This document shows, piece after piece, positions 1 through 31,687 of a stretch of 37,361 bases of DNA (position 1 is the first letter of the stretch; the number at the start of each line of letters is the position of its first letter). A program made the position numbers and the translations under genes. The notes beneath the pieces are model-generated. The model made no database searches and had not been told where the DNA came from. It was given only the letters and a program-made list of their open reading frames with translations. The DNA comes from an uncultured Myxococcales bacterium. Its GTDB lineage: Bacteria > Myxococcota_A > Polyangia > Palsa-1104 > JAEUJZ01. The DNA lies in contig CALMML010000381.1 in assembly GCA_937868485.1 (NCBI GenBank), forward strand, positions 1 to 37,361, read 5' to 3'.

Positions 1-3000
1 TGATCCCGACGCCGAAACTGGACGATCGGACGTACGCCGATATCATCGCCGAGGCCATTCGGCTGATTCCTAGGTACTGTCCAGAGTGGACGAACCACAA
101 TCCCTCTGATCCGGGTATCACCATCTTGGAGCTCTGTTCATGGATGACAGAGCTGATTCTGTATCGACTCAACAAGGTTCCAGAGAAGAACTATCTGACC
201 TTCCTGGACATGCTTGGAATCAAGCTTCAGGCTGCACAGCCAGCCCGAGCGCTCCTGACGTTCAAGCTCGCGGAAGGAGTCGAGCGTCAGACGATTCGTC
301 GTGGTCTGCAGGTATCGACTCCGCAGGCCGATGAGGAAGATGCAGTTCTGTTCGAGACGCAGCGTGATCTGACCGTGATCAGCGCAAACCTCGATCGCTG
401 CTTTTCCTATTTCGATGAAGCGTATTCCGATAACTCTCCCTATCTGCAAGGAGAGCGTACGGAAGGATTCCTGGCGTTCGCAGGTGCCGAGCGTGTGGAT
501 CGCTTCATCTACCTGGGTGATGAGCGGCTCATCGGAGTCAATGACTCGACGGTGCTACGACTCCGTTTGACGGCTCCTGAGCATGGCGGACGCGATCTGG
601 CGCGGCTCCTGAACTGGGAATACTGGAACGGAAGACGCTGGCGCGAGCTGACGCTTTCACAGCTGGAAGTAGAGCGCGGCGAAGTCATTTTCCAAGGCGT
701 GGTCGATATGCAAAAGACCACGGTAAACGGGCTGGAAACGTACTGGATCCGAGGACGACTGGCGGAAGTTCCGCGCTCTGCTGCGGAGACAGAAGTCGAT
801 ACCGTTCGCGGAATCATCGAGGTGACGGGAGAAGGAATTCTTCCTGATCAGGCGTTTGCCAACCTGGATAACAACGTCTTTATTGCGCTGGATCTTGGCA
901 AGAACGTTCATCCGTTTGGCACAGAGCCAAAGCCAGATCACGTCCTGTATTTGGCATCGCAGGAAGCGCTCAGTCAGCTTGGTGTGCTGGTCGAGATCGA
1001 TTTTGCGCTGAGCGATCCGCAGATTGCGCCGCCTCCCAAAGCGAGTGATGACCTCATCATGTCGTGGGAGTACTTCGATGGAAAGAAGTGGCGGATCTTA
1101 GGAAAGAGCACTCCATCGGGAAAGCCGCCGCAGGGTTGGGAACAGAGCGTGCTTGGTTTTGTCGACGGAACCAACGCGTTTACCAAGGGCGGAACGGTGC
1201 GCTTCAATCGCCCTGCGGATTTGCAGCCGGGCGAAGTGACGGGCGAGCCAAACTACTGGATTCGCATCCGCATCGAGCAAGGTGACTTCGGTGTTCCGGG
1301 CGCGTACATGCTCGACAATGACAAGTGGGTTTGGCGTGATGAGCGTCCGCTGAAGCCGCCTGCGTTCAAGAGCATCGGGATTCGCTATCAAACGGATCTC
1401 GATCACATCAAATACTTCGTTTCCTATAACGACTTTCGGTATCGCGATCACTCCGAAGAGGAGAAAAACGAATACCGACCGTTCCAGCCTTTCCAGGCAA
1501 TTGCCGACGAAGGCGCAGCCGTGTATCTGGGATTCGATCAGCGTCTTCCCAATGAGACGATGAGCCTGTATTTCCAGTTCCAAGAGAGCACGGTTCTGGA
1601 ACAGGACTTCGCGCACGCAGAGCACCTGACGCAGTACTACGAAAAGCGAAAGACGATTTGGGAACCCGAGCAGCGCATCGCTTGGGAGTACTACAACGGA
1701 AGGGCTTGGGTGACGCTGGTTGTTGCGGACGGATCCAAGAACTTTACGGAGTCCGGGTTTATCGACTTTGTCGGCCCGGACGATATGGAAAAGTCGCTCA
1801 AGTTTACCGAAGACCGCTTCTGGATTCGGGCTCGACTGGAGATGGGTGGCTACATCAAGCCGCCGCGTATCCGTCGCATCCTGCAAAACACGGTCGAGGT
1901 GGCCAACGTCCGTACCGTTCGCGATGAGATCCTCGGTTCGTCGGATGGCACGCCGCTACAGAGCTATACGCTGCTACACGGACCGCTGCTCGGTGGACAG
2001 GTCATCGAGGTTCGGGAACGCGAAGAGCCGATTGCCGATGAGATCGAAGAGCTGGGCGAAAACGCGGTGCGTGTCGCCGAAGATCGCGAAGGCGGCTACA
2101 TGGTCCGCTGGAAGGAAGTCGAGAGCTTCTTCGAGTCGGTTCCCAAGTCGCGTCACTACATCATCGATCCGCTGACTCGGCAGGTGCGGTTTGGCGACGG
2201 CATTCGCGGCATGGTTCCGCCGGTCAGTCGCAACACCGTGATCGCCAATGAGTATCGCGTCGGTGGTGGCAGCAAAGGCAACGTCAATGCCTTTACGCTG
2301 ACGTCGCTGACTCGAGCGGTTCCGTACATCGAAAAGGTCTACAACGTCCTTCCTGCCGTCGGTGGAGCGGACGCGGAAACGGTCGAGCAGGCCAAAGAGC
2401 GCGCACCGCTGCAGATCAAGAGCCGCGATCGCGCGGTGACGGCGGAAGACTTCGAGACGCTGGCGATGCGATCGACGACGAGCATTGCGCGGGCCAAAGC
2501 GCTGTCGTCCGACGATCAAGCGGGTCACGTTCACTTGGTCATCATCCCGCGTGGCGACGAAAAGAACCTGGATCTGACGCGCAAGCTGGTTCCGCCGCCG
2601 GAGCTGTGTCGGTTTGTGCGCAACTACCTGGATGAGCGACGGCTGATCACGACGATCCTCGACGTGACCAAGCCGGATTATGTGGAGATCTCGCTGAAGA
2701 TCACGCTGATCCGCCGCACCGTCGGTCAGAGCGAGCGTCTGCGCACCGAGATCGAGCAGCGCCTGCGTCGATATCTGCATCCGCTCGTCGGTGGCAAAGA
2801 TGGCAAGGGCTGGCCGTTTGGTCGTCCGGTGTATCGCACCGATCTCGTCCACATGGTCGAAGACATTCCCGGCATCGAAGCGATTGAGTCGATCCAAATC
2901 TACGACGAGGATCGTCGCATCAACGTCGATAGCGTGCGGCTCAAGGACGACGAGCTGCCCCATGTCGTCAACGTCGCTGTCGTCGAGCGCGTCCGTCAGG

Positions 3001-3011
3001 AGATGATCTGA
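1..3011 (+). CDS. Baseplate J-type wedge protein of a contractile injection system (5' end cut by window)
   Basis: The reading frame is open from base 3. Bases 1-2 are TG, so they may be the end of the ATG/GTG start codon; the visible protein starts IPTPKLDDRTYADI, which is how such proteins usually begin. About 1002 residues are visible. The N-terminal part (LIPRYCPEW, NHNPSDPGIT, YRLNKVPEKNY) and a baseplate_J-like core around residues 770-900 (VGGADAET, SRDRAVTAEDFE) match the large 'putative baseplate assembly protein' family (TIGR02243 type). This family forms the baseplate wedge in eCIS particles. The middle contains three copies of a W-E-Y-x-x-G-x-x-W module near residues 205, 355 and 561. 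The stop overlaps the next start by one base (TGATG), so the two are probably translationally coupled. The family assignment is firm; the class of particle (eCIS rather than prophage) is inferred from the neighbours. Confidence 0.9.
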   Translation, partial: IPTPKLDDRTYADIIAEAIRLIPRYCPEWTNHNPSDPGITILELCSWMTELILYRLNKVPEKNYLTFLDMLGIKLQAAQPARALLTFKLAEGVERQTIRRGLQVSTPQADEEDAVLFETQRDLTVISANLDRCFSYFDEAYSDNSPYLQGERTEGFLAFAGAERVDRFIYLGDERLIGVNDSTVLRLRLTAPEHGGRDLARLLNWEYWNGRRWRELTLSQLEVERGEVIFQGVVDMQKTTVNGLETYWIRGRLAEVPRSAAETEVDTVRGIIEVTGEGILPDQAFANLDNNVFIALDLGKNVHPFGTEPKPDHVLYLASQEALSQLGVLVEIDFALSDPQIAPPPKASDDLIMSWEYFDGKKWRILGKSTPSGKPPQGWEQSVLGFVDGTNAFTKGGTVRFNRPADLQPGEVTGEPNYWIRIRIEQGDFGVPGAYMLDNDKWVWRDERPLKPPAFKSIGIRYQTDLDHIKYFVSYNDFRYRDHSEEEKNEYRPFQPFQAIADEGAAVYLGFDQRLPNETMSLYFQFQESTVLEQDFAHAEHLTQYYEKRKTIWEPEQRIAWEYYNGRAWVTLVVADGSKNFTESGFIDFVGPDDMEKSLKFTEDRFWIRARLEMGGYIKPPRIRRILQNTVEVANVRTVRDEILGSSDGTPLQSYTLLHGPLLGGQVIEVREREEPIADEIEELGENAVRVAEDREGGYMVRWKEVESFFESVPKSRHYIIDPLTRQVRFGDGIRGMVPPVSRNTVIANEYRVGGGSKGNVNAFTLTSLTRAVPYIEKVYNVLPAVGGADAETVEQAKERAPLQIKSRDRAVTAEDFETLAMRSTTSIARAKALSSDDQAGHVHLVIIPRGDEKNLDLTRKLVPPPELCRFVRNYLDERRLITTILDVTKPDYVEISLKITLIRRTVGQSERLRTEIEQRLRRYLHPLVGGKDGKGWPFGRPVYRTDLVHMVEDIPGIEAIESIQIYDEDRRINVDSVRLKDDELPHVVNVAVVERVRQEMI

Positions 3012-4753
3012 TGCTGCAAGAGCGCGAGCCGATGCAGCGTCGCCTGGTCCGCGTTCCTGACGTGGTTGGGCTGAACCTGCAGAAGGCTCTGCTACTGATT
3101 CAGCACGCTGGCCTGAAGGTCGGCGCGGTGCTGTACAAAGAAAGCTACGAGGAAAAGGACACCATCCTCGAGCAGAAGCCGCAGCGTGGGCAGATGGTCT
3201 ACGCGTCGGACGAAGTGACGCTGTGGACCTCGCGTGAGAGCTACATCAAGTGGCTGCCCGCGATCTATCAGCGATCCGATGCGACGGGACGAAACTATGT
3301 CCGCGATCTGCTGTGGGTGATTCAGCACCTGTTTGGGTCGATCGAGACGATGCTCGATACGATCCACCTGTTCTTTGACTCGTACGAGACGCCCGAGCAC
3401 TTCCTTCCGTGGCTGGCTGCCTGGTCGGCGATGATCCTGGAGCCGGACTGGCCCGTTTCGAAGAAGCGACGGCTGATCAAAAAAGCGATGGAGCTGTATC
3501 GGCTGCGCGGCACGGTGCGCGGTCTGAAGCTGTTCATTTCGCTGTTTACGGGCTTTGAGCCGCATCTGGCGGAAAACGAGTGGCCGTTTAACGGCTTCCG
3601 CATTGGTATTTCTTCGACGGTGGGCATCGACACGGTGATCCTACCGCCCGTCGACAAAGCGCACTCGTTCGTCGTGGTGATGCCGCACAAGTTCAAGGAC
3701 GTCACCAGCCAGTCGATCATCCGTCTCCATGAGATCATCGAGATGGAAAAGCCGTCGCACAGCACGTACATGCTGAAGTTCGAGGATCCTCGTCAGGCCG
3801 TCGAGGAGCGCGAGTTCTATCGCATCGGCGTGACGTCGGGCGTAAACGTCGGACAGGAAGTGGTGACGCCGCTGCCGATGGATGCAGAGACGGGCGAGCC
3901 GGACTATCCGAAAGAGCCGGTGATGCCGCCGCCGCCGCCGAATCCGTCGGTGTACGAGCTGTTCGGAACCAAGAAGCGACAGCTCCCGCCGATCGTGGGA
4001 GCGGCCAAAGCCGACAATGCTCCCGTCGAAGGTCGCGAAGTTACGTCGAGCAAGTATGGCTTCGAAGGTGCGCGTGAGTTCCGTCTCGACGACATCATGA
4101 AAGAGCTGCTGGCCCGCGCTGGGCTAGAGAATAGCGTCGATGTGTCCGTTGAAACAGGCTCGGGCACAGGCTCGGGCACTGGCGCAGACACGGGCGGAAC
4201 AAGCAGCGTGGTGCTGGAAGAGCTGGCCAAGACCGATGTGGGCCAGGCTTCGGGCGATGAAGCGCTGCTGGAGTCGTCACTGCTCGTTTCAGACGGTGGA
4301 GATGCCAAGGTCGAGACGCCCAGTGTGGCTGTGAGCGAGCCGGTAAGCGACGAGAGCGGCAAGACGCCCGTGACAGAGCCCGCGACCGCGATGACAGACG
4401 AGGAACAAGACATTCCTCGCGCGGGGCTTGGGGCCACCGTCGAAGGCGGCGTCAAAGGCCAAAAGCCCAAGGTCGATATCGACGTAAGCGTCGAGGAGAT
4501 TGGCGGCGACGAGATCGAAGAGGTCAGCGCCGACGACTGGCTGCAAGTAGCCGAAGCAGAGACGGAACAAAAGCCGCAGAGCAAGCCGCCAAGCGATCCG
4601 GTGGCCAAGGTCAGCGGCACGGCCAGCGTCGAAGGCAACGTCCAGACGGGCGGGCCTCGAGTCGAAATCGAGATCGAGAAGCGCGAAGTTCCAAGTGATG
4701 AAGGCCCCGCGCCAAGCGGCAGCGACAAGCCTTCCGACGGTTCCAAGAAATAG
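3011..4753 (+). CDS. Phage-tail (gpI/TIGR02242-like) baseplate protein with N-terminal PASTA domain
   Basis: This is a 580-residue protein. Residues about 13-73 look like a PASTA domain (VRVPDVVGLNLQKA, a hydrophobic strand, then LEQKPQRGQMV). PASTA domains normally bind peptidoglycan or beta-lactams in PknB-type kinases and PBPs. Residues about 77-200 carry the hallmark of the TIGR02242 tail domain (WLPAIYQ, FLPWLAAW, RLRGTVRGLKLFI), which in eCIS is the second wedge component beside the J protein. From about residue 290 the protein is acidic and low complexity (Gly/Ser/Thr-rich and PPPPPNP stretches). Near the C-terminus a short motif VEGxVxxxxPxVxI occurs twice. The start overlaps the preceding stop, and AGGAG lies just upstream inside the previous gene. 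A wall-binding module on a baseplate protein is unusual and may help anchor or orient the particle; that role is inference. Confidence 0.85.
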   Translation: MLQEREPMQRRLVRVPDVVGLNLQKALLLIQHAGLKVGAVLYKESYEEKDTILEQKPQRGQMVYASDEVTLWTSRESYIKWLPAIYQRSDATGRNYVRDLLWVIQHLFGSIETMLDTIHLFFDSYETPEHFLPWLAAWSAMILEPDWPVSKKRRLIKKAMELYRLRGTVRGLKLFISLFTGFEPHLAENEWPFNGFRIGISSTVGIDTVILPPVDKAHSFVVVMPHKFKDVTSQSIIRLHEIIEMEKPSHSTYMLKFEDPRQAVEEREFYRIGVTSGVNVGQEVVTPLPMDAETGEPDYPKEPVMPPPPPNPSVYELFGTKKRQLPPIVGAAKADNAPVEGREVTSSKYGFEGAREFRLDDIMKELLARAGLENSVDVSVETGSGTGSGTGADTGGTSSVVLEELAKTDVGQASGDEALLESSLLVSDGGDAKVETPSVAVSEPVSDESGKTPVTEPATAMTDEEQDIPRAGLGATVEGGVKGQKPKVDIDVSVEEIGGDEIEEVSADDWLQVAEAETEQKPQSKPPSDPVAKVSGTASVEGNVQTGGPRVEIEIEKREVPSDEGPAPSGSDKPSDGSKK

Positions 4754-4788
4754 GAAACTTCTAACCAGGGTTCCCAGCGAGGGGCACG

Positions 4789-6426
4789 ATGGCGACTGAG
4801 AGTGAGAGCAAAGTCAAGGGCTTCAAGCGGATCAACTTCTTTAAGGGCTTTCTCACCACCGAGCACGATTGGAACGATGCCGAGCGGTACCACATCGAGA
4901 AGCGCCGTCTGCACAACAAGATGATGCACGCTCCGGGCGTGGTCTTCGGTTTCAGCGGCGATCTCAAGGTGACTGCGCGTCCTCGTGGCGATCTGTCGGT
5001 CGAGATTCAGCCCGGCTACGCCGTCGACGGTCAGGGTCGAGACCTGATGCTGTGGGACGCCGAGATCAAGACGCTTGTCCTCGAAGAGTACAAGCTGCCG
5101 CAGACCATCTACATCGTGCTGCGCTACTACGAGCAAGAAACCGACTTTATCGCCTACAAAGAAAACGCGGCGTATAAGGGGCATCGGCGGATTCTCGAGG
5201 GCTGTAAGGTCGAGATCTCGCAGACTGCGCCGGACATTCGTGAAGAAGTCGAGCTTGCGCGGATTTTGCTTGACAAAAACGCAACTCGTATCCGTGACGC
5301 GCGCGATCCGAATGAGCCGAAGGCCAACGAGATCGATCTGCGCTTTGTGCCTCGCGCGGGTGTGGCGGGATCGTCGATCGATCCGGTGCTGCGGATTCGC
5401 TTGGCGCTGCTGCTCGATCGGCTGCGTCGGCTGCTGCTGGCGATGGCGCGCGACAACAAGGTGGAAACGGCGCACGACGCGCTGGCGGGCGTGATTGCGG
5501 CGCAGACGCTGCACACGGCGGACCTGCTCGACAACCGCAACGGTCACGAGATCCTGAACATGCTGGTTCAGCTTCAGGACGAGCTGACCAAGGATGTCGA
5601 GGTCAACCACCCGCAGCTTGGTCAGAAGAAAGAGTTCGGCAACTACAAAAAGAACCTGGAGATCGTCCGGGGACTGCTCGGCGAGCGTCGCAATACGCCA
5701 GAGGCGTTCGACAACATGCTCGTCTACATGGCCAAAGGTGCCGAGGAGCTTGCGCCGCTGTACGGTGGCGAAGCGACGGATTCGGGACCGCCGACGCCGG
5801 GTCCGGTGCAGACGGTTCCTTCCGACGATGGTCAGAAGGCCAAGGTCGAAGCCGCCGACAAGGACAAAAAGCCGCGTGGCAGCTACGGTCCGAACGAGAT
5901 CCCGCCCGACGACATGGAGCGGATCAAGGGCATCTCCGAGCAGGATCTGCCGATGGAGCTGGAGATCAACGGCGAGACCTGGGTCCGCATCGACATGATC
6001 AAGGTCATGGACACCGACTCGGAGAGCGCCCACGACCTGAAGATCCAAGAGGCGCGCGACTCGTACCGATCGCGTCAGCGGCTCAAGTATCCCGACGGCA
6101 AGTCGCTCGAAGACGTCGGTCGTGCGCACGTCTCGGGCTTCGTCACGTACAAGGTCAAAGGCGTCACGCCCGGCAAGCGACTGCTCATCGTCCGTCGCAT
6201 GGACTACGTCTACGGCGACTACTCGCTGGAGTTCGAGGTCGACGGCAAGAAGGCGGGCGTCTGCGAGTGTCCCGGCACCGACCGCATCAACCGCTGGCGC
6301 AACTGGCCGCACATTGTGCCCGCCGAGTTTGTGGTGCGCGCGGAGCCGAACGTGAAGCAAATCGCCGTCACAGCCGGTCGCGACATCAACATGTTCCGTT
6401 ACTGGTTCTACCAGCCGAGGCAATAA
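4789..6426 (+). CDS. Tail-associated structural protein with C-terminal beta-rich domain (eCIS accessory)
   Basis: A 545-residue protein preceded by GAGGGG eight bases before the ATG. Its first 160 residues (FFKGFLTTEHDW, AERYHIEKRRLHNK, GVVFGF, VEIQPGYAVDGQGRDL) resemble a segment I recall from proteins encoded beside eCIS and tail baseplate genes in several bacterial groups, whose exact role is not established to my knowledge. Residues about 200-275 are helical and Leu/Arg-rich. A charged linker follows. The last 105 residues (GKRLLIVRRMDY, GDYSLEFEVDGKKAG, WRNWPHIVPAEFVV) look like a beta-sandwich similar to galactose-binding or DUF2961-type folds, so it could be a receptor- or carbohydrate-binding tip, or a spoke linking baseplate to fibre. 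Position directly after two baseplate genes supports a structural role. The precise function is unknown. Confidence 0.65.
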   Translation: MATESESKVKGFKRINFFKGFLTTEHDWNDAERYHIEKRRLHNKMMHAPGVVFGFSGDLKVTARPRGDLSVEIQPGYAVDGQGRDLMLWDAEIKTLVLEEYKLPQTIYIVLRYYEQETDFIAYKENAAYKGHRRILEGCKVEISQTAPDIREEVELARILLDKNATRIRDARDPNEPKANEIDLRFVPRAGVAGSSIDPVLRIRLALLLDRLRRLLLAMARDNKVETAHDALAGVIAAQTLHTADLLDNRNGHEILNMLVQLQDELTKDVEVNHPQLGQKKEFGNYKKNLEIVRGLLGERRNTPEAFDNMLVYMAKGAEELAPLYGGEATDSGPPTPGPVQTVPSDDGQKAKVEAADKDKKPRGSYGPNEIPPDDMERIKGISEQDLPMELEINGETWVRIDMIKVMDTDSESAHDLKIQEARDSYRSRQRLKYPDGKSLEDVGRAHVSGFVTYKVKGVTPGKRLLIVRRMDYVYGDYSLEFEVDGKKAGVCECPGTDRINRWRNWPHIVPAEFVVRAEPNVKQIAVTAGRDINMFRYWFYQPRQ

Positions 6427-6443
6427 GGTAAGCTGGACAGGCC

Positions 6444-7343
6444 ATGTTTATAGACAGGCTATTAGACACAATCCTTAGGCCCTTCCGCGAGCTCTGGGGC
6501 TACTTCAGCCGAGTCCGGGGCATCCAGACGGGCATCGTGAGTGATGTTCACCGCGTGCGCAACGTCGGCGATTACGCGCGCAGTGAAGTCGGCCAGATCA
6601 AAAACATGGTCGTGGCGCCCGGCCAGTTGTTGCCGGGCTACGGGCAGGCGCAGCAAGCGGCGCAGATGCCCCACATGGCGCAGCAACAGGCGGAAAAGAA
6701 AAAGATGGGCTGGTCGTTTCCCTGGAGCAAAAAGACGTGTCCGCGCTGCCAAAATAAGCTGCAGAAGAGCTGGGATCAGTGTCCCTACTGCGGCCAGAAT
6801 CAGAACCAGCCGGTGACTGCTGGTCCCCCTGCGGCGGGTGGGGCTCCTGGGTATGGCGCGCCGGCTCCAGGCTATGGTGGAGCGCCTCCGGGTGGTGGAG
6901 CGCCAGGGTACGGTGCGCCGGGCTATGGAGCGCCTCCAGGGGCTCCGTACGGTGCGCCGATGCCATCACCGGGTGGGGCCGCCAAGACGATCGCGATGGA
7001 TGCGGCGGCGATTGATGCACCGCTGCTGGCAACCGGCGATCGGGCGGAAAACGTCGCATGGCTGGTTCCTCTCGAAGGTGCGCTGACGGGCGAGCTTTTG
7101 CAGATTCGGACCCGCGCGATCATCGGGACGGCGGATGGCTGCGAGGTCAAGCTGTTCGATGCCGCGATCTCGGGTCGTCACGCAGAGATCGTGCTGTCGC
7201 AAGGCAGTCGGTTCCGCATCAACGACCTGGGCTCGCGCAATGGCACGTACGTCAACGACAAGGCGATTGCTTCGACGGAGCTAGTCGACGGCGACAACAT
7301 CCGTCTGGGCCGTACCACCTTCCGCTTCAAGACCAAGCACTAA
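6444..7343 (+). CDS. Zinc ribbon - FHA domain protein
   Basis: A 299-residue cytoplasmic protein. Residues 1-55 are an amphipathic helical region, followed by a Gln-rich linker. A four-cysteine zinc ribbon sits at C99, C102, C113 and C116. Residues about 125-175 are a Gly/Pro/Tyr/Ala linker with repeated GYGAP. A FHA domain occupies about 205-299, with the conserved G228, SGRH (243-246) and N266-G267 of the phosphothreonine-binding surface. Just before the FHA, at residues 181-186, is KTIAMD, which resembles KTVALE at the same place in the next protein. FHA domains bind pThr peptides; in type VI secretion, FHA proteins are assembly switches. It is separated by 17 bases from the tail gene before it and 9 bases from the next gene, so it is in the same operon. 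The regulatory role in the injection system is inferred. Confidence 0.85.
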   Translation: MFIDRLLDTILRPFRELWGYFSRVRGIQTGIVSDVHRVRNVGDYARSEVGQIKNMVVAPGQLLPGYGQAQQAAQMPHMAQQQAEKKKMGWSFPWSKKTCPRCQNKLQKSWDQCPYCGQNQNQPVTAGPPAAGGAPGYGAPAPGYGGAPPGGGAPGYGAPGYGAPPGAPYGAPMPSPGGAAKTIAMDAAAIDAPLLATGDRAENVAWLVPLEGALTGELLQIRTRAIIGTADGCEVKLFDAAISGRHAEIVLSQGSRFRINDLGSRNGTYVNDKAIASTELVDGDNIRLGRTTFRFKTKH

Positions 7344-7352
7344 AGGCAGATC

Positions 7353-8843
7353 ATGCAGCGGCGATCCTTTCATCGGATGACTTCGGGTTTTTTGGCGACC
7401 AGGCTGTGGGCGTTCGCGCTTTCGACGCTCGTGGTCTTGTGTGCGCTGCTCGGGCCTGCGCCGTCGTATGCGCAGAATGCCAAGCTTCGTCTGGAGCGCT
7501 TTGGCTTCGACAAGCTTCCCGATTTGAAGGTGTACATCACCTACGTCGAGGAAGACGGCACCGTCATCGCCGGACGACAAGCGTCGGACTTCAAGCTTCA
7601 GGTGGACTCGATCGACCAGGGCGCCGGGCGCGTCATCACGTCGTTTGATCAGGCCAAAGAGCCGATCTACGTGATGGCGGTCGTACAAGTCGGTGGCGCG
7701 GTCGATGAGCGCGTGATCGCCGAGGTCAAAGGCGGTCTGCGTCGCGTCAACGATGCCGTCGGTAGCACGCCGGGCGGTCGCATGGGCATCTTGTCCTACG
7801 CCGACAAGACCAACCGCATCATCGAGTTTGGCACCAGCACCGAAGTCGACGCAGGCATTGGCAAGCTGGCGCTGGAGACGGAAGCGAGCGAGTCGCACAT
7901 GCTCGACGCGGTGCGGACGGCGATCGATCTTCTGAAGCAGCAGGAAAAGGGTCGGCGCAAGCTGATCATCCTGGTGTCCGACGGCATCGACGTAAACAAC
8001 GAGAAGAAAAACTTCACCGAAATCGGCAACCGCGCGCAGCTTGGCGGAATCGTCATCGACACCGTCGGCTACAACGCGTTTGATGCCTCGAAGCTGCGCA
8101 ACCTGCAGGAAATGACCAAGCGCTGCTACGGCACCGATCGTGTGGCGAAGGCTCCGACGGAAATTGGTCCGAAGCTCGATGGCATCGTCGACGAAGTGCA
8201 GAGGCAGTACATCGTGCAGTTTCCGCTCACGATCGTCGGTGACGACCAAGATCACCTGTTTCAGGTGACGCACGAAGCGGGCGGCAAGCCGGTCTACAGC
8301 AACACGATTCAGGAAAAGCTGCTGTCGAAGGCTCCGGTGAGCGCGGCTCCGGCTCCGAAGGAAAAGAGCAAGTGGTGGCTGTATGCGCTGATTGCGGCGG
8401 GTGTGCTCGGAGCGATTCTGATCGCGCTGAAGCTGCGCAAAAAGCCCGTCGATGCAGCACCGGCTCCGGCTCCGCAGCCTGGCAAGTCGGATGCACCAGC
8501 GCCTCGGATGAGCAACAAGACGGTGGCTCTGGAGGCCGCTGGCGACATCACGATGGGCTGGGTGATGGGCCTGACGGGCAAGTACAAGGATGTGACGTTC
8601 AAGCTCAAGGATCGCTCGGTGATTGGCACGGCGCCCGACTGCGACATTGTGATCGAGGACGGCTTTATGTCGCACCGTCACTGCGAGATCCGCAAAGTCG
8701 ATGGCGGTTTCAAGCTGGTGGACCTGGGCGCAACCAACGGCGTGGTCGTCAACGACAAGCGAGTGAAGGAACACTTCCTCGTCGACAACGACAACTTCCG
8801 GCTGGGTCGCACCGAGTTCAAGTTCAAGTCGATCTTCGGCTAG
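7353..8843 (+). CDS. Secreted vWA domain - transmembrane - cytoplasmic FHA protein
   Basis: A 496-residue protein. It has an N-terminal signal peptide (hydrophobic 17-33, PSYAQ cleavage region near 40), a von Willebrand A-type domain at about 105-285, a single membrane helix at 341-360 followed by KLRKK, a Pro/Ala linker, and a C-terminal FHA at about 402-496 (SHRH 440-443, N462-G463). The topology puts the vWA outside the cytoplasmic membrane and the FHA inside, so it could relay an external binding event to a phospho-dependent partner. The first MIDAS motif of vWA (DxSxS) is not present: the strand reads VVQVGGAV. The later Asp in LVSDG (210) is kept. Metal-dependent ligand binding may therefore be lost. 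KTVALE at 389-394 precedes the FHA as in the upstream protein. It is tightly spaced with its neighbours. Confidence 0.85.
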   Translation: MQRRSFHRMTSGFLATRLWAFALSTLVVLCALLGPAPSYAQNAKLRLERFGFDKLPDLKVYITYVEEDGTVIAGRQASDFKLQVDSIDQGAGRVITSFDQAKEPIYVMAVVQVGGAVDERVIAEVKGGLRRVNDAVGSTPGGRMGILSYADKTNRIIEFGTSTEVDAGIGKLALETEASESHMLDAVRTAIDLLKQQEKGRRKLIILVSDGIDVNNEKKNFTEIGNRAQLGGIVIDTVGYNAFDASKLRNLQEMTKRCYGTDRVAKAPTEIGPKLDGIVDEVQRQYIVQFPLTIVGDDQDHLFQVTHEAGGKPVYSNTIQEKLLSKAPVSAAPAPKEKSKWWLYALIAAGVLGAILIALKLRKKPVDAAPAPAPQPGKSDAPAPRMSNKTVALEAAGDITMGWVMGLTGKYKDVTFKLKDRSVIGTAPDCDIVIEDGFMSHRHCEIRKVDGGFKLVDLGATNGVVVNDKRVKEHFLVDNDNFRLGRTEFKFKSIFG

Positions 8844-8861
8844 CGACGGGGAGCGATCGCG

Positions 8862-9326
8862 ATGGCATCGATTGCTGCATATCTGCTGATGACCCTGTCC
8901 GGCCTGGCCGGTGGCGCGACGATGTTTCTGTCGCTGCAAGGCGCGGGCGTGCGTCCGTGTCCCAAGTGCAAAAAAGAGATGATGCCCGACTGGACGCAGT
9001 GCCTGTTTTGCAAAGCAGTGCCCGAGTTCGAGGAAGGCAAGCCCGCGCTGCTACACTTTCTGAACGGGCCGCTCGCGGAGCAGGTCGCGACGCTCGATAA
9101 GCAAGTGGTGACGATCGGCAGCGTGCCGGGCAACGATATCGTGATTGCTGATCCAAGCGTGTCTCGGAAGCACATCGGAATCCGCAGGGTCGACGGTGGC
9201 TACGAGGTCGCAGATTTTGGTTCGACCAATGGTGTGTTCGTCAACGGAGACCGCGTGCCGAAGAAGAAGCTGGCAATTGGCGACGTGCTCCGTGTGGGCA
9301 ACATCGAGATGATTTTCCGTCTGTAA
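8862..9326 (+). CDS. Membrane-anchored zinc ribbon - FHA protein
   Basis: A 154-residue protein with a GGGGAG ribosome-binding site. Residues 1-27 form a hydrophobic segment, probably an uncleaved membrane anchor. A zinc ribbon follows (C33, C36, C47, C50), then an FHA domain from about 73 to the end with G86, SRKH (101-104) and STNG (121-124), the canonical pThr-binding residues. It is a minimal membrane-tethered version of the first FHA protein in this operon. It is the third of four consecutive FHA genes, with 18 bases to the gene before. The likely role is to recruit a phosphorylated partner, perhaps from the injection system, to the membrane; this is inferred from architecture and context only. 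Confidence 0.85.
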   Translation: MASIAAYLLMTLSGLAGGATMFLSLQGAGVRPCPKCKKEMMPDWTQCLFCKAVPEFEEGKPALLHFLNGPLAEQVATLDKQVVTIGSVPGNDIVIADPSVSRKHIGIRRVDGGYEVADFGSTNGVFVNGDRVPKKKLAIGDVLRVGNIEMIFRL

Positions 9327-9356
9327 ACCGACTTTGGCTTTAGAGAAGAAGCGAAG

Positions 9357-11366
9357 ATGGCAGCGAAGCTCCTATATCGAGATGCTCAAGGCCGAGACGC
9401 CGCAGTGAACCTTCCCGAGACCGGCTCGTTTTTGGGCCGGGCGGTCGATTGCATCATCCGCACCGACGACGCAATGGTGTCGCGGAAGAACTGCAAGATC
9501 AGCTTCATCAACAGTCGCTGGTACGTCGAAGACCTGGGTTCGGCCAACGGAACCTTTATCAACGAGCGACGCATCAGCCGCGACGAGCTAAACCATGGCG
9601 ACGTGATCCGCTGTGGCTCGCTGCAGGTTCGGTTCGTCGATTCACCCGAGCAGCAGGTTCGGCAGACGATTCCTCAGTCGAGCGGTCCGAATCCGCCGCC
9701 GCCTCCGCAGCAGCCGCAGCAGCCGGCACAGCAGCCGGCGCAGCAGCCGCAGCCGCCGGTGACGGGTCCGTCGAGTCCTGCCGCGAATCCGTCGACACCA
9801 GCGGTGCCTCCGCCGATTCCGGGCAGTGCGACGCCCGCCGCGCAGAGCAGCAAGCCTGATGGCTCGTCGTCGTCGGATGCTGAAAAGCCTGCCGATGCCA
9901 AAGCCGCAGAGCCAGCCAAAGCCGGGTCGGACGATGCGGTGAAGAAGGTTCAGGACGAGGTCAACAAGCTGACCTCTGAGCTGGATGCGGCCAAGAAAGC
10001 GTCCGACGAGCTAAAGACCGAGCGCGACCAAGCCGTCACCAAGATTGAGTCGATGGAAGGCGAGGTCAAGAAGCTGCGGCAAGAAGCGGCTGCGGCCAAG
10101 TCCACCGCCGAGAAGCTGTCGCGGCAGATGCAGCAGACGGAAAAAGAGCTGCGCGAAGAGAGCCGCAACAACGAGGAGCTGCGTCAGGATCTGAAGCAGC
10201 TCAAAGAGCAGTTTGAAAAGGCGAGGACGCAGGCCGACGAGCTAAAGACGCAAGTCGAAGCCAAAGAGCGCGAGCTGGCGGCAGCCAAAGAAGACGTTCG
10301 TCGCAGCAAGCAAGCCGCCGACAACCTGACGCAGAAGCTTCAGGAAATGGTGCGCTCTCGCGACGAGCAGATGCGGGCGATCAACTCGCAGATCGGCGAC
10401 GTCGACAAGCTGCGCGACATCCTCAAAGAGCGTGAGCGGCTCATCGAGGAGCAGCGCGTCGGTCTGGTGAATCAGGAATCGCAGCTCAAAGACATTCGCA
10501 AGCGCAGCGAGGAGCTGGAGCGCGATCTGTCGGTGATTCGTGGCGAGCGTGACAACCTGCGGGATCGGCAAAATCGCGCGCAGGTTCAGGTCGAGGAGCT
10601 TCGCTCGGAGCTGGATCGCCTGCACAACATGCTGTCCAACCAGGTCGAAGGCGGCGAGCAGCTGGCGGCTCTGACGCGCGACATGGCGGCGCTGCGGGAC
10701 AACCTGAGCGATGCCAATGCCGAGATCTCGAAGCTGCACGACGAGCTGGCCAAGACGACCGTCGATCTTCAGGCGGTGTCCAAGCAGCGCGATCAGCTCG
10801 CGGAGGAGCGTCGCGGCGGCCAAGCGAAGGTTCAGGCCGCGATCGAGCAAGCCGTTCAGCAAGCTGTGACGGAGCTGCGCGCCAAGGCTGACAAAGAGAA
10901 GCAAGAGATCGTCGCTCAGCACAATGCAAAGGCGCAGGAAGTCGCGGATCTGAAGAACCAGCTTCAGGCAGTGACTCCGTCGGATGCTGTGCTGCAAGAG
11001 CTGTCGTCGACGCGCGGCGAGCGGGATCAGTATCGGTCGCGGGTCGCAGAGCTGGAAGCGATGGTTCGCGAGCTTCAGAAAGCGGCAGCGACGGCGCCTC
11101 CTCCGGCAGCGGCGGGAAATCCCGAGGCTGAGCGGATGCTGGCCGAGATGAAGGGTGTGGCGACGACCGCGTATGACGGCATCAACGACGCACTGTCGGA
11201 GCTTCGACTGTCGATCGTGATGGCGCAAGAGACGTGGAACAAGATGGAGCGCACCTACACCGACCGCGACGCCGCCCGCAAGCTGCGCGACGCGATCGAC
11301 GAGACGATGACGCGCGCCGACGAAGCAAAAGGCCACGTTCGCAGCCTGCGCAGCTTGATTGAGTAG
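9357..11366 (+). CDS. FHA domain - long coiled-coil protein
   Basis: A 669-residue protein. An N-terminal FHA domain spans residues 1-95 (G27, SRKN 42-45, SANG 62-65). A Pro/Gln/Ala-rich linker follows at about 100-185 (QQPAQQPAQQ). Residues about 190-580 are an almost unbroken coiled coil with heptads rich in Lys, Glu, Gln and Leu. A short helical tail ends the protein. The usual FHA His in SxxH is Asn here (SRKN), which may weaken structure or alter ligand choice. Such a protein can be a scaffold or a molecular tether that oligomerises and presents several FHA heads. It sits between three other FHA genes and an AAA+ ATPase, in the same operon. Cytoplasmic, as no signal or membrane helix is seen. 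Confidence 0.8.
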   Translation: MAAKLLYRDAQGRDAAVNLPETGSFLGRAVDCIIRTDDAMVSRKNCKISFINSRWYVEDLGSANGTFINERRISRDELNHGDVIRCGSLQVRFVDSPEQQVRQTIPQSSGPNPPPPPQQPQQPAQQPAQQPQPPVTGPSSPAANPSTPAVPPPIPGSATPAAQSSKPDGSSSSDAEKPADAKAAEPAKAGSDDAVKKVQDEVNKLTSELDAAKKASDELKTERDQAVTKIESMEGEVKKLRQEAAAAKSTAEKLSRQMQQTEKELREESRNNEELRQDLKQLKEQFEKARTQADELKTQVEAKERELAAAKEDVRRSKQAADNLTQKLQEMVRSRDEQMRAINSQIGDVDKLRDILKERERLIEEQRVGLVNQESQLKDIRKRSEELERDLSVIRGERDNLRDRQNRAQVQVEELRSELDRLHNMLSNQVEGGEQLAALTRDMAALRDNLSDANAEISKLHDELAKTTVDLQAVSKQRDQLAEERRGGQAKVQAAIEQAVQQAVTELRAKADKEKQEIVAQHNAKAQEVADLKNQLQAVTPSDAVLQELSSTRGERDQYRSRVAELEAMVRELQKAAATAPPPAAAGNPEAERMLAEMKGVATTAYDGINDALSELRLSIVMAQETWNKMERTYTDRDAARKLRDAIDETMTRADEAKGHVRSLRSLIE

Positions 11367-11408
11367 CGAGCCCAGCTCCCATCGCATTCCTTTTCCACAG
11401 GTGAAATC

Positions 11409-13022
11409 ATGACCCAAGAGCAAGCTGCTGTATCTCCGACGGACGGCGAAGAGCTAAATCGCAGCGAAAAAGAGATCCTGGATCTGATTCGCGCGCGCTA
11501 TTCGCTGATGTACATCGTGTCGTCGGAAGAGCAGCGTGTCGAAGAGTCGCTTCTGAAGCTGGCCCGACGGCGAGACATGAAGCTCGGATCGTGGTCGATT
11601 ACGCGCGGCTTTGTGCAAAAGTTTGGAACGCTCAAGGGTGGCGACGCCAAAGATCCGATCAAGGCGCTCGACTACATTGCGGCGGCAGAAGGTCGCTGTC
11701 TGTTTGTGCTGCGCGACTTTCATGCGTTCGTCAACGATCCGACGGTGGTTCGCAAGCTGCGCGACCTGGCGCACGATCTGCGCAAGACGCAGAAGAACAT
11801 CTTCATCCTGTCGGCGGTGACCAAGATTCCGCCGGAGCTGGAAAAAGATCTGTGCATCGTCGACTGGGATCTGCCAAATCGTCCCGAGCTGACCAAGGTT
11901 GTCGAGGGACTTTTGCATCAGCTTCCGCAAGGCTGCGAGCCGGGTCTGGCCAAAGAGCCCGAAGGTCGCGAGCAGATTGTCGATGCGGCGCTCGGACTGA
12001 CGCTGACGGAAGCGGAAAACGTGATCGCAAAGTCGATCGTCCGTCACAAGACGTTCCACTTGCCGACGATCTTGGCGGAAAAAAAGCACATCATCCGCAA
12101 GAGCGGCATCCTCGAATACTACGAGGCGGAAGAAAACCTCGACGGAATCGGTGGTCTGGAAATCCTCAAGCAGTGGCTGGTCAAGCGTCGTCACGCCTTT
12201 ACGTCGGATGCGCGCGACTTCGGGCTGCCGCTGCCGAAGGGAATCCTGCTGCTGGGTCTGCCGGGCTGCGGTAAGTCGCTGACCGCGAAAGCCGTCGGTG
12301 CGGCGTGGCAGATGCCGCTGTTGCGACTCGATGTCGGCAAGATCTTCGGTGGTCTCGTCGGTGCGTCGGAAGAAAACATGCGCAAAGCGCTCAAGACGGC
12401 GGAAGCGGTTGCGCCGTCGATCCTGTGGCTCGATGAGATCGAAAAAGGTCTGTCGGGCACGGGATCATCGAATATGTCCGACGGTGGCACGACGTCGCGT
12501 GTGTTCGGTACGTTCGTGACGTGGATGCAGGAAAAGACCTCGCCAGTGTTCGTCATTGCGACGGCAAACGACGTGCGCAGCCTGCCGCCCGAGCTTTTGC
12601 GCAAAGGTCGCTTTGATGAGATCTTCTTCGTCGATCTCCCGTCGCAGGAAGAGCGCGGCGAGATCATGAAGATCCATCTTAAGAAGAAGGGTCGCAACGC
12701 GTCGCATCTCGATATGCACAAGATCATCGACTCGATGGCCGACTTTTCAGGCAGCGAGGTCGAGCAGGTGGTCGTCTCGGCGCTGTACGAAGCCTTCGAC
12801 GCAGATCCGCACAATCGCGAGCTGACGACGGACCAGCTGTTGCACTCGGCGCGTGAGATCGTTCCGCTCGCGGTGACGATGGCCGAAAAGATTGCCGATA
12901 TGCGTGAGTGGGCTCGGACGCGCGCGCGTACTGCGTCGCTGCCGCAGGCTCAGTCGCAGCCGCGACGAACCAAAGATCGCTTTGCTGTCCCGACGGAACC
13001 CGGTGGTCGGATTGAGCTGTAG
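11409..13022 (+). CDS. Ycf46-like AAA+ ATPase
   Basis: A 537-residue protein. The N-terminal 200 residues (YSLMYIVSSEE, FVLRDFHAFV, IFILSAVTKIPPELEKD) form the degenerate RecA-like domain typical of the Ycf46 family. The C-terminal AAA+ module has Walker A GLPGCGKS (283-290), Walker B with D342-E343 (LWLDEIEKG), a sensor segment VIATAND, and an arginine-finger region LLRKGRFDE. ATP hydrolysis is therefore expected. Ycf46 proteins occur in cyanobacteria, plastids and many other bacteria and are poorly characterised. Here it is directly followed by a Ycf35-like and a DUF2997 gene, a trio I recall being neighbours elsewhere. eCIS loci usually carry an AAA+ ATPase of a different (CDC48-like) type, so this one could play the equivalent particle-remodelling role; this is inference. 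Confidence 0.85.
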   Translation: MTQEQAAVSPTDGEELNRSEKEILDLIRARYSLMYIVSSEEQRVEESLLKLARRRDMKLGSWSITRGFVQKFGTLKGGDAKDPIKALDYIAAAEGRCLFVLRDFHAFVNDPTVVRKLRDLAHDLRKTQKNIFILSAVTKIPPELEKDLCIVDWDLPNRPELTKVVEGLLHQLPQGCEPGLAKEPEGREQIVDAALGLTLTEAENVIAKSIVRHKTFHLPTILAEKKHIIRKSGILEYYEAEENLDGIGGLEILKQWLVKRRHAFTSDARDFGLPLPKGILLLGLPGCGKSLTAKAVGAAWQMPLLRLDVGKIFGGLVGASEENMRKALKTAEAVAPSILWLDEIEKGLSGTGSSNMSDGGTTSRVFGTFVTWMQEKTSPVFVIATANDVRSLPPELLRKGRFDEIFFVDLPSQEERGEIMKIHLKKKGRNASHLDMHKIIDSMADFSGSEVEQVVVSALYEAFDADPHNRELTTDQLLHSAREIVPLAVTMAEKIADMREWARTRARTASLPQAQSQPRRTKDRFAVPTEPGGRIEL

Positions 13023-13037
13023 TTCGAGAGGAAGCCG

Positions 13038-13433
13038 ATGAGTCACTTTACGACGGTCGCGACGAAGATTAACAACATCCAGTGCCTGCTCAAGGCGCTC
13101 GACAAGCTCAAGCTCAAGTACACGCACGCCGAGCAAGGGGTCGAAGTCCGAGGCTGGCGCGGTCAAAAGAGCACGGCTGAAGTGTCGATCAACATGGGTC
13201 GCTACGACATCGGCGTCGTCAAGAACGAAGACGGCACCTATGGTCTGCAAGCCGACTGGTGGGGAATCGAAACCACCGTCGGAAAGACCGAGCAAGAAGT
13301 CGTCGACGAGATCAACCGCGAGTATGCGTATCAGACCGTGGTCGTCGCGTGCGAAGAGCAGGGCTACCGAATCGAAGAGCAGAATGTCTCCGAGGACGGT
13401 ACGATCAAGCTTTCGGTATCAAAGTGGGGCTAG
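13038..13433 (+). CDS. DUF1257 (Ycf35-like) protein
   Basis: A 131-residue soluble protein beginning MSHFTTVATKI, with the DUF1257 pattern: a short N-terminal strand, ALDKLKL, a central strand-rich part (VSINMGRYDIGVV, YGLQADWWG) and the final helix-strand segment. It lies 15 bases behind the Ycf46-like ATPase, with GAGAGGAA as ribosome-binding site. Family members are known from plastid genomes (ycf35), cyanobacteria and scattered bacteria. Their function is not established. The tight linkage suggests that it is a partner or substrate adaptor of the ATPase. Confidence 0.85.
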   Translation: MSHFTTVATKINNIQCLLKALDKLKLKYTHAEQGVEVRGWRGQKSTAEVSINMGRYDIGVVKNEDGTYGLQADWWGIETTVGKTEQEVVDEINREYAYQTVVVACEEQGYRIEEQNVSEDGTIKLSVSKWG

Positions 13434-25834: not shown

Positions 25835-26473
25835 GTGCCCGTCGTGAATCCGCAGCCGAGCCCGGCCAAGTATTGCGCATCGTGCCGAGGGATTTTTCCC
25901 GTAGAGGCCACGGTGTGCGAGCGCGACGGCTCGCCGCTGGAACAGGTCGAGCAAGTGCTGGCCGGACGATATGTCCTCAAGAGCGTGATCGGCTCGGGCA
26001 ACATGGGCACGGTGTACCGAGCGACGCAGCTGCCGATGGGACGCGACGTCGCGGTGAAGCTGATGCACAGCGATCTGGTTCGCAATCCAGATCTGGTCGA
26101 GCGCTTCGAGCGAGAAGCGCAAGCCGCAGCGACGGTGGATCATCCCAACGCGATCACGGTGTTTGATAGCGGACGGACCAGCGACGGACAGGTTTACATC
26201 TCGATGGAGCTGCTCGAAGGAGAGAGCCTGTCGGCGATGATCGATCGCGAAATTCAGATTCCTCCCGAGCGCGCGCTGGAGCTGTGGATTCCCGTCGTAA
26301 AAGCCATGGTCGTCGCCCACCGCAAGGGCGTGATCCACCGTGACCTCAAGCCGGATTTGATCTGGGCCGTCGGGGCGTGCGCGCTGCTTTCCCTGGGCAC
26401 TCGGGGGCTTTGGGGGAATGCGGTGGTCAGTGCGACAGGCACAGCGCAAGCAGCGGTGCGCACAGGACGTTGA
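25835..26473 (+). pseudogene. 5' part of an interrupted zinc-ribbon Ser/Thr protein kinase
   Basis: GTG start at 25835, 174 native codons to 26356. It has a small N-terminal zinc-ribbon (C14, C17, C28, D31) and then the N-lobe and half of the C-lobe of a Hanks-type kinase: glycine loop IGSGNMG (52-58), ATP-anchoring K75 in VAVK, E94, and the catalytic loop start HRDLKPD (168-174, Asp170 catalytic). After D174 the frame enters inserted DNA and adds 39 foreign codons before a stop at 26473. The missing remainder (beginning NIFVARR) lies from 30172. Rejoined at the 7-mer AGCCGGA the two parts give a 651-residue kinase with no frameshift. As it stands, the product lacks DFG and the activation segment and is not expected to be active, unless the insert is excised. 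Confidence 0.85.
26349..26355 (+). repeat. Left junction 7-mer AGCCGGA
   Basis: This is the left copy of the direct repeat that bounds the insert. It belongs to the kinase codons for K-P-D of HRDLKPD. The identical 7-mer is at 28257-28263 (between units) and 30165-30171 (right joint). The match ends exactly at seven bases on both sides. It could be a target-site duplication, a microhomology used in recombination, or a site-specific recombination core. Confidence 0.85.
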
Positions 26474-27125
26474 GGACGCCCATCATGACCATGACGAGGG
26501 CTGCGACGGCACCTTCGGTCTGGCCTAGCTCATAGGCTTTGGCTGTGCCCACGCCGTGTGCGCCTGCGCCAAACAAGGCTCCGCGCGCAAGGGACGAATG
26601 AATCGGCATCGCTTGGATGAGACGCTGTCCAATCACCGAGCCGAGCACGCCCGTCAGGATGACGAACAGTGCGGCCAGCTCGGGCTCTCCGCCGATGCGT
26701 CCTGCGATTTCCATGGCAAACGGCGTGCTGGTCGAGCGTGGCAAAAGGCTCAGGCGAATCGAGCCATCTATCCCGAGCAGGGTTGCCAGCCACCAGCTGG
26801 TGACGATCGAGGTGAGGCTGGCGGCGACGCTCCCAATCAAGATGACGGGACCGTGGGCTCGCAGCAGGGCTCTCTGACGGTGGATCGGTGCGGCAAAGGC
26901 TACGGTCGTCGGTCCCAGCAGCGCAACCAGCCAGCCGGTGCAGGCGGCGTACTGGCGATACGGCGTTCCCGTCGTCACAACCAGCAGCAGCAGCAGCGCC
27001 GGGGCGACCAGCAGCGGCGTGGTCCAGATGTGACGCCACACCGCGTGAATGCGTCGAGCTGCCGCAAAACAAGCCACGGTTGCTACGGACCAGCCGACGA
27101 CGGACAGAACGGATGGACTGTTCAC
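26427..27125 (-). CDS. lrgB: LrgB family membrane protein (copy 1)
   Basis: A 232-residue protein. The GTG start at 27125 overlaps the lrgA stop by four bases (GTGA). A longer reading to 27767 would run antisense-like through lrgA in another frame and is rejected. It is a multi-pass membrane protein with typical LrgB segments: LLGPTTVAFAAPIHRQ, RSTSTPFAMEIAGRIGG, and FGAGAHGVGTAKAYELGQ, the latter being the family's conserved loop. LrgAB/CidAB proteins are linked to murein hydrolase control, programmed cell lysis and export of pyruvate or glycolate-type small acids. It lies in the duplicated insert, on the strand opposite to the interrupted kinase. Confidence 0.88.
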   Translation of the reverse strand: MNSPSVLSVVGWSVATVACFAAARRIHAVWRHIWTTPLLVAPALLLLLVVTTGTPYRQYAACTGWLVALLGPTTVAFAAPIHRQRALLRAHGPVILIGSVAASLTSIVTSWWLATLLGIDGSIRLSLLPRSTSTPFAMEIAGRIGGEPELAALFVILTGVLGSVIGQRLIQAMPIHSSLARGALFGAGAHGVGTAKAYELGQTEGAVAALVMVMMGVLNVLCAPLLALCLSH

Positions 27126-27517
27126 CGCGTGACTCTCCGTCGCACACCCAGTTCGATGACCAGCCCGGTCACTGCCATCACCGCCAGCGTACTGCCGACG
27201 AGCACGACCAGCAATTTCAGGATCATCATCCCGCCAAGCTCTGGGTGATCGATCACGGCCAGCGTCGTAGGCACAAAGAACAGCAGCATCAGGTGCAGCA
27301 GCCAGTCGGCTCCGCGACGAATCGACAGCGGCGACAGCCCGCGTGAAAACAGCAGCACCAGCGTGATAAGCAGCCCGAGCACGCCTCCCGAGATCGGCAG
27401 GCCGGTCTTCTTGGCGATGAGCGCTCCAACGCTCCAGAGCAGTCCAAGCAGCGCGATTTGCAGCGGACGACTTCCGCGCAGTCTGCGACGCAATCGGACG
27501 GACCAGCGATTCCACAT
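27122..27517 (-). CDS. lrgA: CidA/LrgA family membrane protein (copy 1)
   Basis: A 131-residue protein with about four membrane helices. The family pattern is visible: IALLGLLWSVGALIAKKTGLPISGGVLGLL, then LLHLMLLFFVPTTLAVI, then a final helix VLVGSTLAVMAVTGLVIEL. CidA/LrgA proteins are small holin-like membrane proteins that act with LrgB. The gene comes first, with lrgB overlapping it by four bases, as is usual for lrgAB operons. No convincing ribosome-binding site is visible upstream of the ATG. It diverges from the 168-aa gene across about 135 bases. Confidence 0.85.
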   Translation of the reverse strand: MWNRWSVRLRRRLRGSRPLQIALLGLLWSVGALIAKKTGLPISGGVLGLLITLVLLFSRGLSPLSIRRGADWLLHLMLLFFVPTTLAVIDHPELGGMMILKLLVVLVGSTLAVMAVTGLVIELGVRRRVTR

Positions 27518-27624
27518 GATGAGGAGACTCTAGCGCGCCTTTGGGCTGGCTCGGTGGCGGTCTCGCAGTCGATCGATCTGCTTCCGTCGCCAAACGCAAG
27601 CGATCGCACGTCGTAGTCGCCGCT

Positions 27625-27633
27625 TGATATACT
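27625..27633 (+). promoter_or_regulatory. Extended -10 promoter of the 168-aa gene (copy 1)
   Basis: TGATATACT is an extended -10 element (TGn followed by TATACT). The -35 region is weak (TCGCAC). A start near 27640 would leave a leader of about 13 bases, containing the GGGCGGGGG ribosome-binding site of the gene at 27653. The element is repeated identically in copy 2. Confidence 0.5.
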
Positions 27634-27652
27634 GCAAAGTTGGGCGGGGGCG

Positions 27653-28159: not shown

Positions 28160-28256
28160 CGCTCGCTGCCGATCCGACATGGACGGTTCCCGCGTACTTC
28201 CCAGCGTGCGCGTGGGCAGAGCCTGTTGGCGACGGAAAACGATCCGAGAAACTGTC

Positions 28257-28263
28257 AGCCGGA
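28257..28263 (+). repeat. Middle junction 7-mer AGCCGGA
   Basis: The copy between unit 1 and unit 2. It is followed by TTTGATC, as at the left joint, and preceded by ACTGTC, as at the right joint. This shows that both outer joints recur in one internal joint. Confidence 0.85.
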
Positions 28264-28334
28264 TTTGATCTGGGCCGTCGGGGCGTGCGTGCTGCTTTCC
28301 CTGGGCACTCGGGGGCTTTGGGGGAATGCGGTGG

Positions 28335-29425: not shown

Positions 29426-29532
29426 GATGAGGAGACTCTAGCGCGCCTTTGGGCTGGCTCGGTGGCGGTCTCGCAGTCGATCGATCTGCTTCCGTCGCCA
29501 AACGCAAGCGATCGCACGTCGTAGTCGCCGCT

Positions 29533-29541
29533 TGATATACT
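29533..29541 (+). promoter_or_regulatory. Extended -10 promoter of the 168-aa gene (copy 2)
   Basis: TGATATACT, identical to the element in unit 1, the same distance before the second copy of the gene. Transcription from here would read rightwards into the 3' part of the broken kinase gene, since no clear terminator follows the 168-aa gene. Confidence 0.5.
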
Positions 29542-29560
29542 GCAAAGTTGGGCGGGGGCG

Positions 29561-30067: not shown

Positions 30068-30164
30068 CGCTCGCTGCCGATCCGACATGGACGGTTCCCG
30101 CGTACTTCCCAGCGTGCGCGTGGGCAGAGCCTGTTGGCGACGGAAAACGATCCGAGAAACTGTC

Positions 30165-31680: not shown

Positions 31681-31687
31681 CCTGCTC

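Follow-up and report, generated by a model that had tools for sequence, protein, structure and literature searches.

The type VI secretion system (T6SS) ties a forkhead-associated (FHA) protein and an extracellular von Willebrand factor A (vWA) domain to a contractile machine; PpkA joins a kinase to this vWA domain and acts through Fha1 (PMC3224232, in part). The thylakoid contractile injection system (tCIS) of Anabaena is anchored by extensions of its tail fibre (Cis13, with a transmembrane (TM) domain) and of its baseplate (PMC8894136, in part). In the FHA domain of PrgH, from type III secretion systems (T3SS), the phosphothreonine (pThr) residues are poorly conserved and their mutants secrete normally, while deletion of the domain stops assembly (PMC3635987, in part). 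Here we describe a contig of an uncultured Myxococcales bacterium (CALMML010000381.1; the window, 37,361 nucleotides) in which four consecutive FHA genes (FHA1 to FHA4) follow baseplate genes of the extracellular contractile injection system (eCIS) type and precede genes for an AAA+ ATPase and a DUF1257 protein. Judged from sequence, FHA4 alone keeps the pThr site, and it goes with the AAA+ and DUF1257 genes and not with the baseplate.

The window is one complete contig of a 6.36-Mb assembly of 514 contigs, and nine genes on the same strand (+) lie within positions 3–13433. The open reading frames (ORFs) below are script-chosen from the first start, and their N-termini and TM counts are approximate.

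3–3011, + strand: baseplate J-type assembly protein, 5' end cut (TIGR02243, 4.6e-106; Baseplate_J, 5.6e-23)
3011–4753, + strand: gpI/TIGR02242 tail protein with an N-terminal PASTA domain (Tail_P2_I, 9.1e-13; PASTA, 3.4e-10)
4789–6426, + strand: CIS13-like contractile injection system protein (NF053767, 1.6e-13, under the curated cut-off)
6444–7343, + strand: FHA1, with zinc-ribbon-like CxxC pairs, a Gly/Pro-rich linker and FHA, no TM segment (FHA, 1.2e-16)
7353–8843, + strand: FHA2, with an N-terminal hydrophobic segment, beta-sandwich plus vWA, TM segment and FHA (FHA, 1.7e-15; VWA, 3.1e-07)
8862–9326, + strand: FHA3, with an N-terminal TM segment, zinc-ribbon-like CxxC pairs and FHA (FHA, 1.3e-17)
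9357–11366, + strand: FHA4, with an N-terminal FHA, a proline-rich linker and a long coiled coil (FHA, 1.1e-16)
11409–13022, + strand: AAA+ ATPase with an N-terminal extension (AAA, 7.8e-31)
13038–13433, + strand: DUF1257 protein, Ycf35 family (PF06868, 1.5e-22; 80.2 bits against a gathering score of 22.2)

The 5' end of the window falls inside the J gene, and gaps of 17, 9, 18, 30, 42 and 15 nucleotides separate the seven genes from the CIS13-like gene to DUF1257. The first-pass annotation had placed four FHA genes between baseplate genes and an AAA+ gene, and this was right: they belong to a single tight operon. Each FHA ORF contains one Pfam FHA domain scoring far over the cut-off, and Pfam Yop-YscD_cpl is a further match over its own cut-off in all four proteins. 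The four distinct architectures described at first pass (zinc ribbon-FHA, vWA-TM-FHA, TM-zinc ribbon-FHA and FHA-coiled coil) agree with the domain and hydrophobicity data, which place hydrophobic segments at residues 18 and 343 of FHA2 and residue 1 of FHA3 and none in FHA1 or FHA4.

Relatives of the CIS13-like protein were identified at E ≤ 1e-3 in 106 of the 377 Myxococcota genomes that made up our sample. An alignment of 14 such relatives led to 80 loci from named genome contigs, nearly all of them Myxococcota metagenome-assembled genomes (MAGs) and mostly uncultured. FHA genes were counted in the 57 loci whose downstream DNA reaches 3.5 kb or more (the other 23 were shorter and left out), and they stand straight after the CIS13-like gene, within 3.5 kb, in 44. 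One FHA gene was present in 1 locus, two in 20, three in 7, four in 16 and none in 13. With at least 7.5 kb downstream (43 loci), the distribution was four or five genes in 17, two in 16, one in 1 and none in 9. All 17 loci with four or five FHA genes run on into an AAA gene, and 16 of them also have DUF1257. The search for this gene order in other Myxococcota, suggested at first pass, thus found FHA genes with baseplate genes in many genomes. Because the identical order recurs so widely, chance clustering of the FHA genes was rejected. The same data bear on the idea that genomes rich in FHA simply carry these genes as unrelated passengers. The source genome does contain 54 FHA domains, but 44 of the 57 loci, from many families, have FHA genes at this same position behind the CIS13-like gene, and the unit of FHA4, AAA and DUF1257 genes co-occurs with the machine even at separate loci, which leaves the passenger explanation with hardly any probability.

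Taken together, the gene orders show a module of baseplate, zinc-ribbon-FHA and vWA-TM-FHA genes (module A), merged in the window's class with a second module (module B) of FHA4, AAA and DUF1257. In the class with two FHA genes, the second protein has a TM segment ahead of its FHA domain and, in family f35, also traces of a vWA domain and a zinc ribbon. This suggests that the window's FHA2 and FHA3 may correspond to that protein in split or duplicated form. A Myxococcota-type cluster with two FHA genes was also present on a contig titled as a Klebsiella pneumoniae MAG (L133), a title that is probably wrong.

The machine associated with these genes resembles eCIS. The window encodes J-type and gpI baseplate proteins (TIGR02243 and TIGR02242) and, at 11409–13022, an AAA ATPase, as eCIS gene sets do (a possible orthologue of Afp15), and the genome or orthologous clusters supply gp25, GPD hub, CIS_tube, gp19 tube and sheath families. 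The FHA membrane proteins and the DUF1257 partner of the ATPase distinguish the locus from eCIS. In a genome of the same genus (G263), gp25 directly precedes J, and the approximately 15 kb read before J contained no tail gene besides gp25, neither sheath nor tube. In the source genome, sheath, tube, CIS_tube and hub genes lie on contigs C214 and C484, and a further sheath-tube pair lies on contig C104 (L036 1308–3503); this genus thus has the genes of the machine at more than one locus. In families f8, f35, f23 and f45, sheath genes lie upstream in the cluster itself, and tube genes were detected in most of these clusters; clusters with upstream sheath genes come from genomes G286, G107, G212, G067, G092 and G204. 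NCBIfam gave no CIS family name to four proteins of the structural loci of the source genome and a relative (L035 15719, 19256 and 15286; L043 650). The first-pass annotation had held that an upstream region lacking sheath and tube genes would speak against its reading. Such a lack is literally true of this genus, but not of the genome or of other families, and in f8 and f35 the FHA genes form one continuous cluster with sheath and tube genes, which bears out their assignment to an eCIS-type machine. The PASTA domain at the N-terminus of gpI (3011–4753), found as well in all three homologues examined from other classes of gene order, hints at contact with the peptidoglycan of either the producer or the target.

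The pThr site divides the four FHA proteins. In Rad53, Arg70, Ser85 and Asn107 touch the pThr peptide and Gly69 and His88 support the site (PMC5549992, in part). We assigned the aligned FHA domains of the 80 loci to groups by gene order and domain position, with the third gene of L079 put in FHA2. The arginine of the GR motif is kept in 0 of 52 FHA1, 1 of 54 FHA2 and 0 of 23 FHA3 domains (1 of 129 pooled) and in 24 of 24 FHA4 domains; the window's FHA1, for example, has GT where GR is expected. FHA4 domains encoded away from baseplate genes have the arginine in 16 of 16 cases. As a control, 40 of the 50 FHA places outside the operon in the source genome were fetched; 2 of the 40 had no letter in the arginine column, and 32 of the 38 alignable domains keep the residue. 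The confinement of the loss to FHA1–FHA3 across loci argues that it is group-specific and old and not the random decay of one gene. The serine of the site is kept in all groups and the histidine and asparagine in nearly all, with asparagine replacing histidine in 7 of 24 FHA4 domains, the window copy included. The membrane segments are also conserved: a TM segment precedes the FHA domain in 54 of 54 FHA2 orthologues, 47 of which have a hydrophobic N-terminus, and among 23 FHA3 orthologues, 21 have a TM segment within the first 100 residues and 21 have CxxC pairs.

The distribution of DUF1257, matched in 74 of the 377 genomes, follows that of the CIS13-like protein. When strong CIS13-like matches were defined as E ≤ 1e-20 (a threshold chosen after the matches had been viewed, and passed by 73 of the 106 genomes), 67 genomes had both proteins, 6 only the CIS13-like protein, 7 only DUF1257 and 297 neither, in counts that ignore shared ancestry. 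Among the 33 genomes with weaker CIS13-like matches, G038 alone has a DUF1257 match, itself weak, and is counted among the 7. At family level, the two sets (strong CIS13-like protein and DUF1257) comprise 17 and 18 families and differ in one when weak G038 is set aside. An AAA gene lies within 3.5 kb of DUF1257 in 68 of the 74 genomes. Where this pair stands apart from the baseplate, an FHA ORF directly precedes the AAA gene in 16 of 17 loci, the miss being a contig end. For example, family f42 has a separate FHA-AAA-DUF1257 locus (L203), and its baseplate loci (L066–L068) show no FHA gene. The co-inheritance and the FHA gene before AAA at separate loci argue that FHA4, AAA and DUF1257 form a unit of their own that accompanies the machine. 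By its gene order, the window's class has this unit fused behind the baseplate-FHA unit.

DUF1257 occurs both in cyanobacteria and in the plastids of red algae; to our knowledge, no function is known for it. The AAA protein at 11409–13022 is putatively Ycf46-like; the libraries that we scanned yielded no Ycf46 model. DUF1257 corresponds to ycf35, and in cyanobacteria the DUF1257 and DUF2997 genes adjoin a ferredoxin gene (PMC4284462, in part). A control search of 14 genomes matched DUF1257 in Synechococcus elongatus only. The DUF1257 structural model (predicted local distance difference test, pLDDT, 89.7) had no Foldseek match at E ≤ 0.001 among solved structures, and its best Z score (6.8, to the Chk1 KA1 domain; root mean square deviation, rmsd, 2.8 over 74 residues) is below the trustworthy level. 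We also observed a DUF2997 gene behind DUF1257 in one locus (L200 7204–7419). Furthermore, a winged-helix protein with tandem AAA domains is encoded right behind DUF1257 in L077 and L079–L082 (by Pfam, L080 18430–20580 and L082 9026–11272), in an order next to the window's family, and is a candidate second ATPase of the system that could be the true eCIS ATPase.

The reading we favour, which we judge to stand at roughly an even chance of being right, is a two-part apparatus working with the eCIS-type baseplate: an inner-membrane docking platform of FHA1–FHA3 and a phospho-reading ATPase unit of FHA4, AAA and DUF1257. FHA2 and FHA3 would set degenerate FHA domains on the cytoplasmic face of the inner membrane, and the soluble FHA1 would link them to the baseplate, all three FHA domains acting as structural protein-binding domains in the manner of PrgH. 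The machine could then be kept at the envelope, in place of or ahead of its release. The pThr site of FHA4 would read a kinase signal and its coiled coil would bring in the AAA-DUF1257 enzyme, which may assemble, recycle or disassemble the machine, a task commonly assigned to the core AAA protein of eCIS or to ClpV. FHA2 and FHA3 share with PrgH, YscD and MxiG a single TM segment and a degenerate FHA domain that is predicted to be cytoplasmic. The periplasmic part of PrgH consists of ring-building domains, whereas the model of FHA2 has a beta-sandwich and a vWA domain in their place, and the window's operon showed no further T3SS gene. The proposed location at the membrane also recalls the Anabaena tCIS, but the CIS13-like protein of the window has no predicted TM segment, and the TM segments sit instead in separate FHA proteins.

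An AlphaFold2 model of FHA2 from a 40-row alignment (pLDDT 84.7; predicted TM-score, pTM, 0.62) comprises the beta-sandwich, the vWA domain, a TM helix at about residues 341–361, a disordered linker and the FHA domain. The vWA fold is supported by the Pfam match (VWA, 3.1e-07) and by Z scores above 20 against vWA chains. Hydrophobic segments and positive residues after the TM helix predict a periplasmic vWA domain and a cytoplasmic FHA domain. The proposal that one protein senses outside through vWA and signals inside through FHA is consistent with this partly trans-membrane build but not supported by the binding sites, as FHA2 lacks the arginine and the DxSxS metal motif is absent from 54 of 54 aligned FHA2-type rows, the window included. 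The top solved match of the model is the ArnAB complex (8s05; Foldseek 5.5e-13; Z 24.3, rmsd 1.8 over 177 residues). In Sulfolobus, ArnA is a zinc finger-FHA protein with an intact arginine, and its partner ArnB is a vWA protein with an intact metal ion-dependent adhesion site (MIDAS) (PMC6509490, in part); FHA1 and FHA2 therefore repeat this pairing with both binding sites altered. The likeness raises the alternative that FHA1 and FHA2 are an ArnA/ArnB-like regulatory pair that controls synthesis of the machine and not its docking. However, the Z score is just about one unit over Rpn10 and other vWA chains, neither FHA1 nor FHA2 has an intact site, and FHA2 is membrane-bound with its vWA and FHA domains predicted on opposite sides, whereas the Sulfolobus proteins are soluble regulators of the archaellum. 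A regulatory pair of this kind is thus improbable, and identity with ArnAB was rejected because the sites differ and the Z score barely exceeds that of other vWA domains.

The vWA domain also leads to T6SS. Homologues of this region lie beside TssK and in an Hcp-TssF-TssG cluster in genome G333, and a vWA-TM-FHA protein (L212) is among the T6SS-linked homologues. Genome G328 encodes a vWA-FHA protein and, next after it, a protein with an amidase domain that resembles the one in the G333 T6SS cluster (L216, L215). These relatives, together with the intact FHA4 site, favour the part of the first-pass annotation that likened the locus to the T6SS kinase-phosphatase-FHA pathway. In such a pathway, the vWA domain of FHA2 would sense an envelope signal, a kinase would mark the baseplate or the FHA proteins, and contact between pThr and FHA would trigger assembly or firing. 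In family f35, a Ser/Thr kinase gene lies 3–5 kb behind the FHA pair (L105, L107), and this gene and the FHA4 site are the reasons why the pathway keeps some weight. In PpkA, however, the vWA domain is fused to a kinase and here to FHA. Furthermore, the intact pThr site expected of the T6SS pathway is found in FHA4 only, and no kinase or phosphatase gene is present among the window's genes within 3–13433. Two neighbouring kinase-domain genes lie at 30134–33109, 17 kb behind the FHA operon, and the first of them matched in its C-terminal half only. The loss of the arginine in FHA1–FHA3 and of the vWA metal site therefore makes a plain copy of PpkA/PppA/Fha unlikely, and with no kinase pair in the operon such a copy was rejected; we consider a pThr pathway in the wider sense rather unlikely. 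The f35 clusters (L105 14473–20905 and L107 14040–20376) have the order FHA pair, PEGA-TPR membrane protein, large ORF and Ser/Thr kinase, and the large ORF of L105 contains thrombospondin type 3 repeats and a regulator propeller. In the window itself, an exact 1.88-kb stretch occurs twice within 26383–30171, 1908 bases apart, doubling ORFs of 446 and 168 amino acids without difference, as in a recent tandem duplication or an assembly artefact.

Several observations weigh against the docking platform and its ATPase unit. The 13 of 57 loci with no FHA gene after the CIS13-like gene imply that FHA1–FHA3 are dispensable for the machine in some lineages, and the serine, histidine and asparagine retained in FHA1–FHA3 leave room for weak or altered phosphopeptide binding. 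The sheath and tube genes that would serve the window's baseplate lie on other contigs (C214, C484 and C104), and shared ancestry may contribute to the co-occurrence of the CIS13-like protein and DUF1257. Some relatives of the vWA region lie at a distance from tail genes, one being a vWA-TM protein on contig C232 of the source genome (L210) that lacks an FHA domain, and 12 of the 64 places listed share a contig with a CIS13-like match; the vWA domain alone is therefore not exclusive to the machine. The first-pass annotation had named FHA orthologues usually found without tail genes as evidence against it, and these counts, which follow the vWA region only, bear on that point for the vWA domain.

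The particle family is already known, and the presence of FHA proteins with eCIS is apparently new, as we did not find it in the literature searched. Three texts on eCIS, catalogues and a review (PMC8213781, PMC12923769 and PMC10598620), and the paper on tCIS (PMC8894136) do not have FHA as a word in their main text. More tentatively, a large Myxococcota clade may have made its eCIS envelope-anchored, independently of T6SS (TssJLM) and of the Anabaena tCIS, by means of a phosphate-blind vWA/FHA membrane complex, a phospho-reader and a Ycf46/Ycf35 ATPase pair. The phosphate-blind membrane FHA domains and the one intact reader give a direct and falsifiable prediction for mutants. If true, a phage-tail machine thought to be released could be retained at the membrane, and controlled there, with no parts of T6SS. 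The locus would also provide the first bacterial functional context for the chloroplast-conserved Ycf46/Ycf35 pair, and a system in which to test DUF1257/Ycf35 together with its AAA partner.

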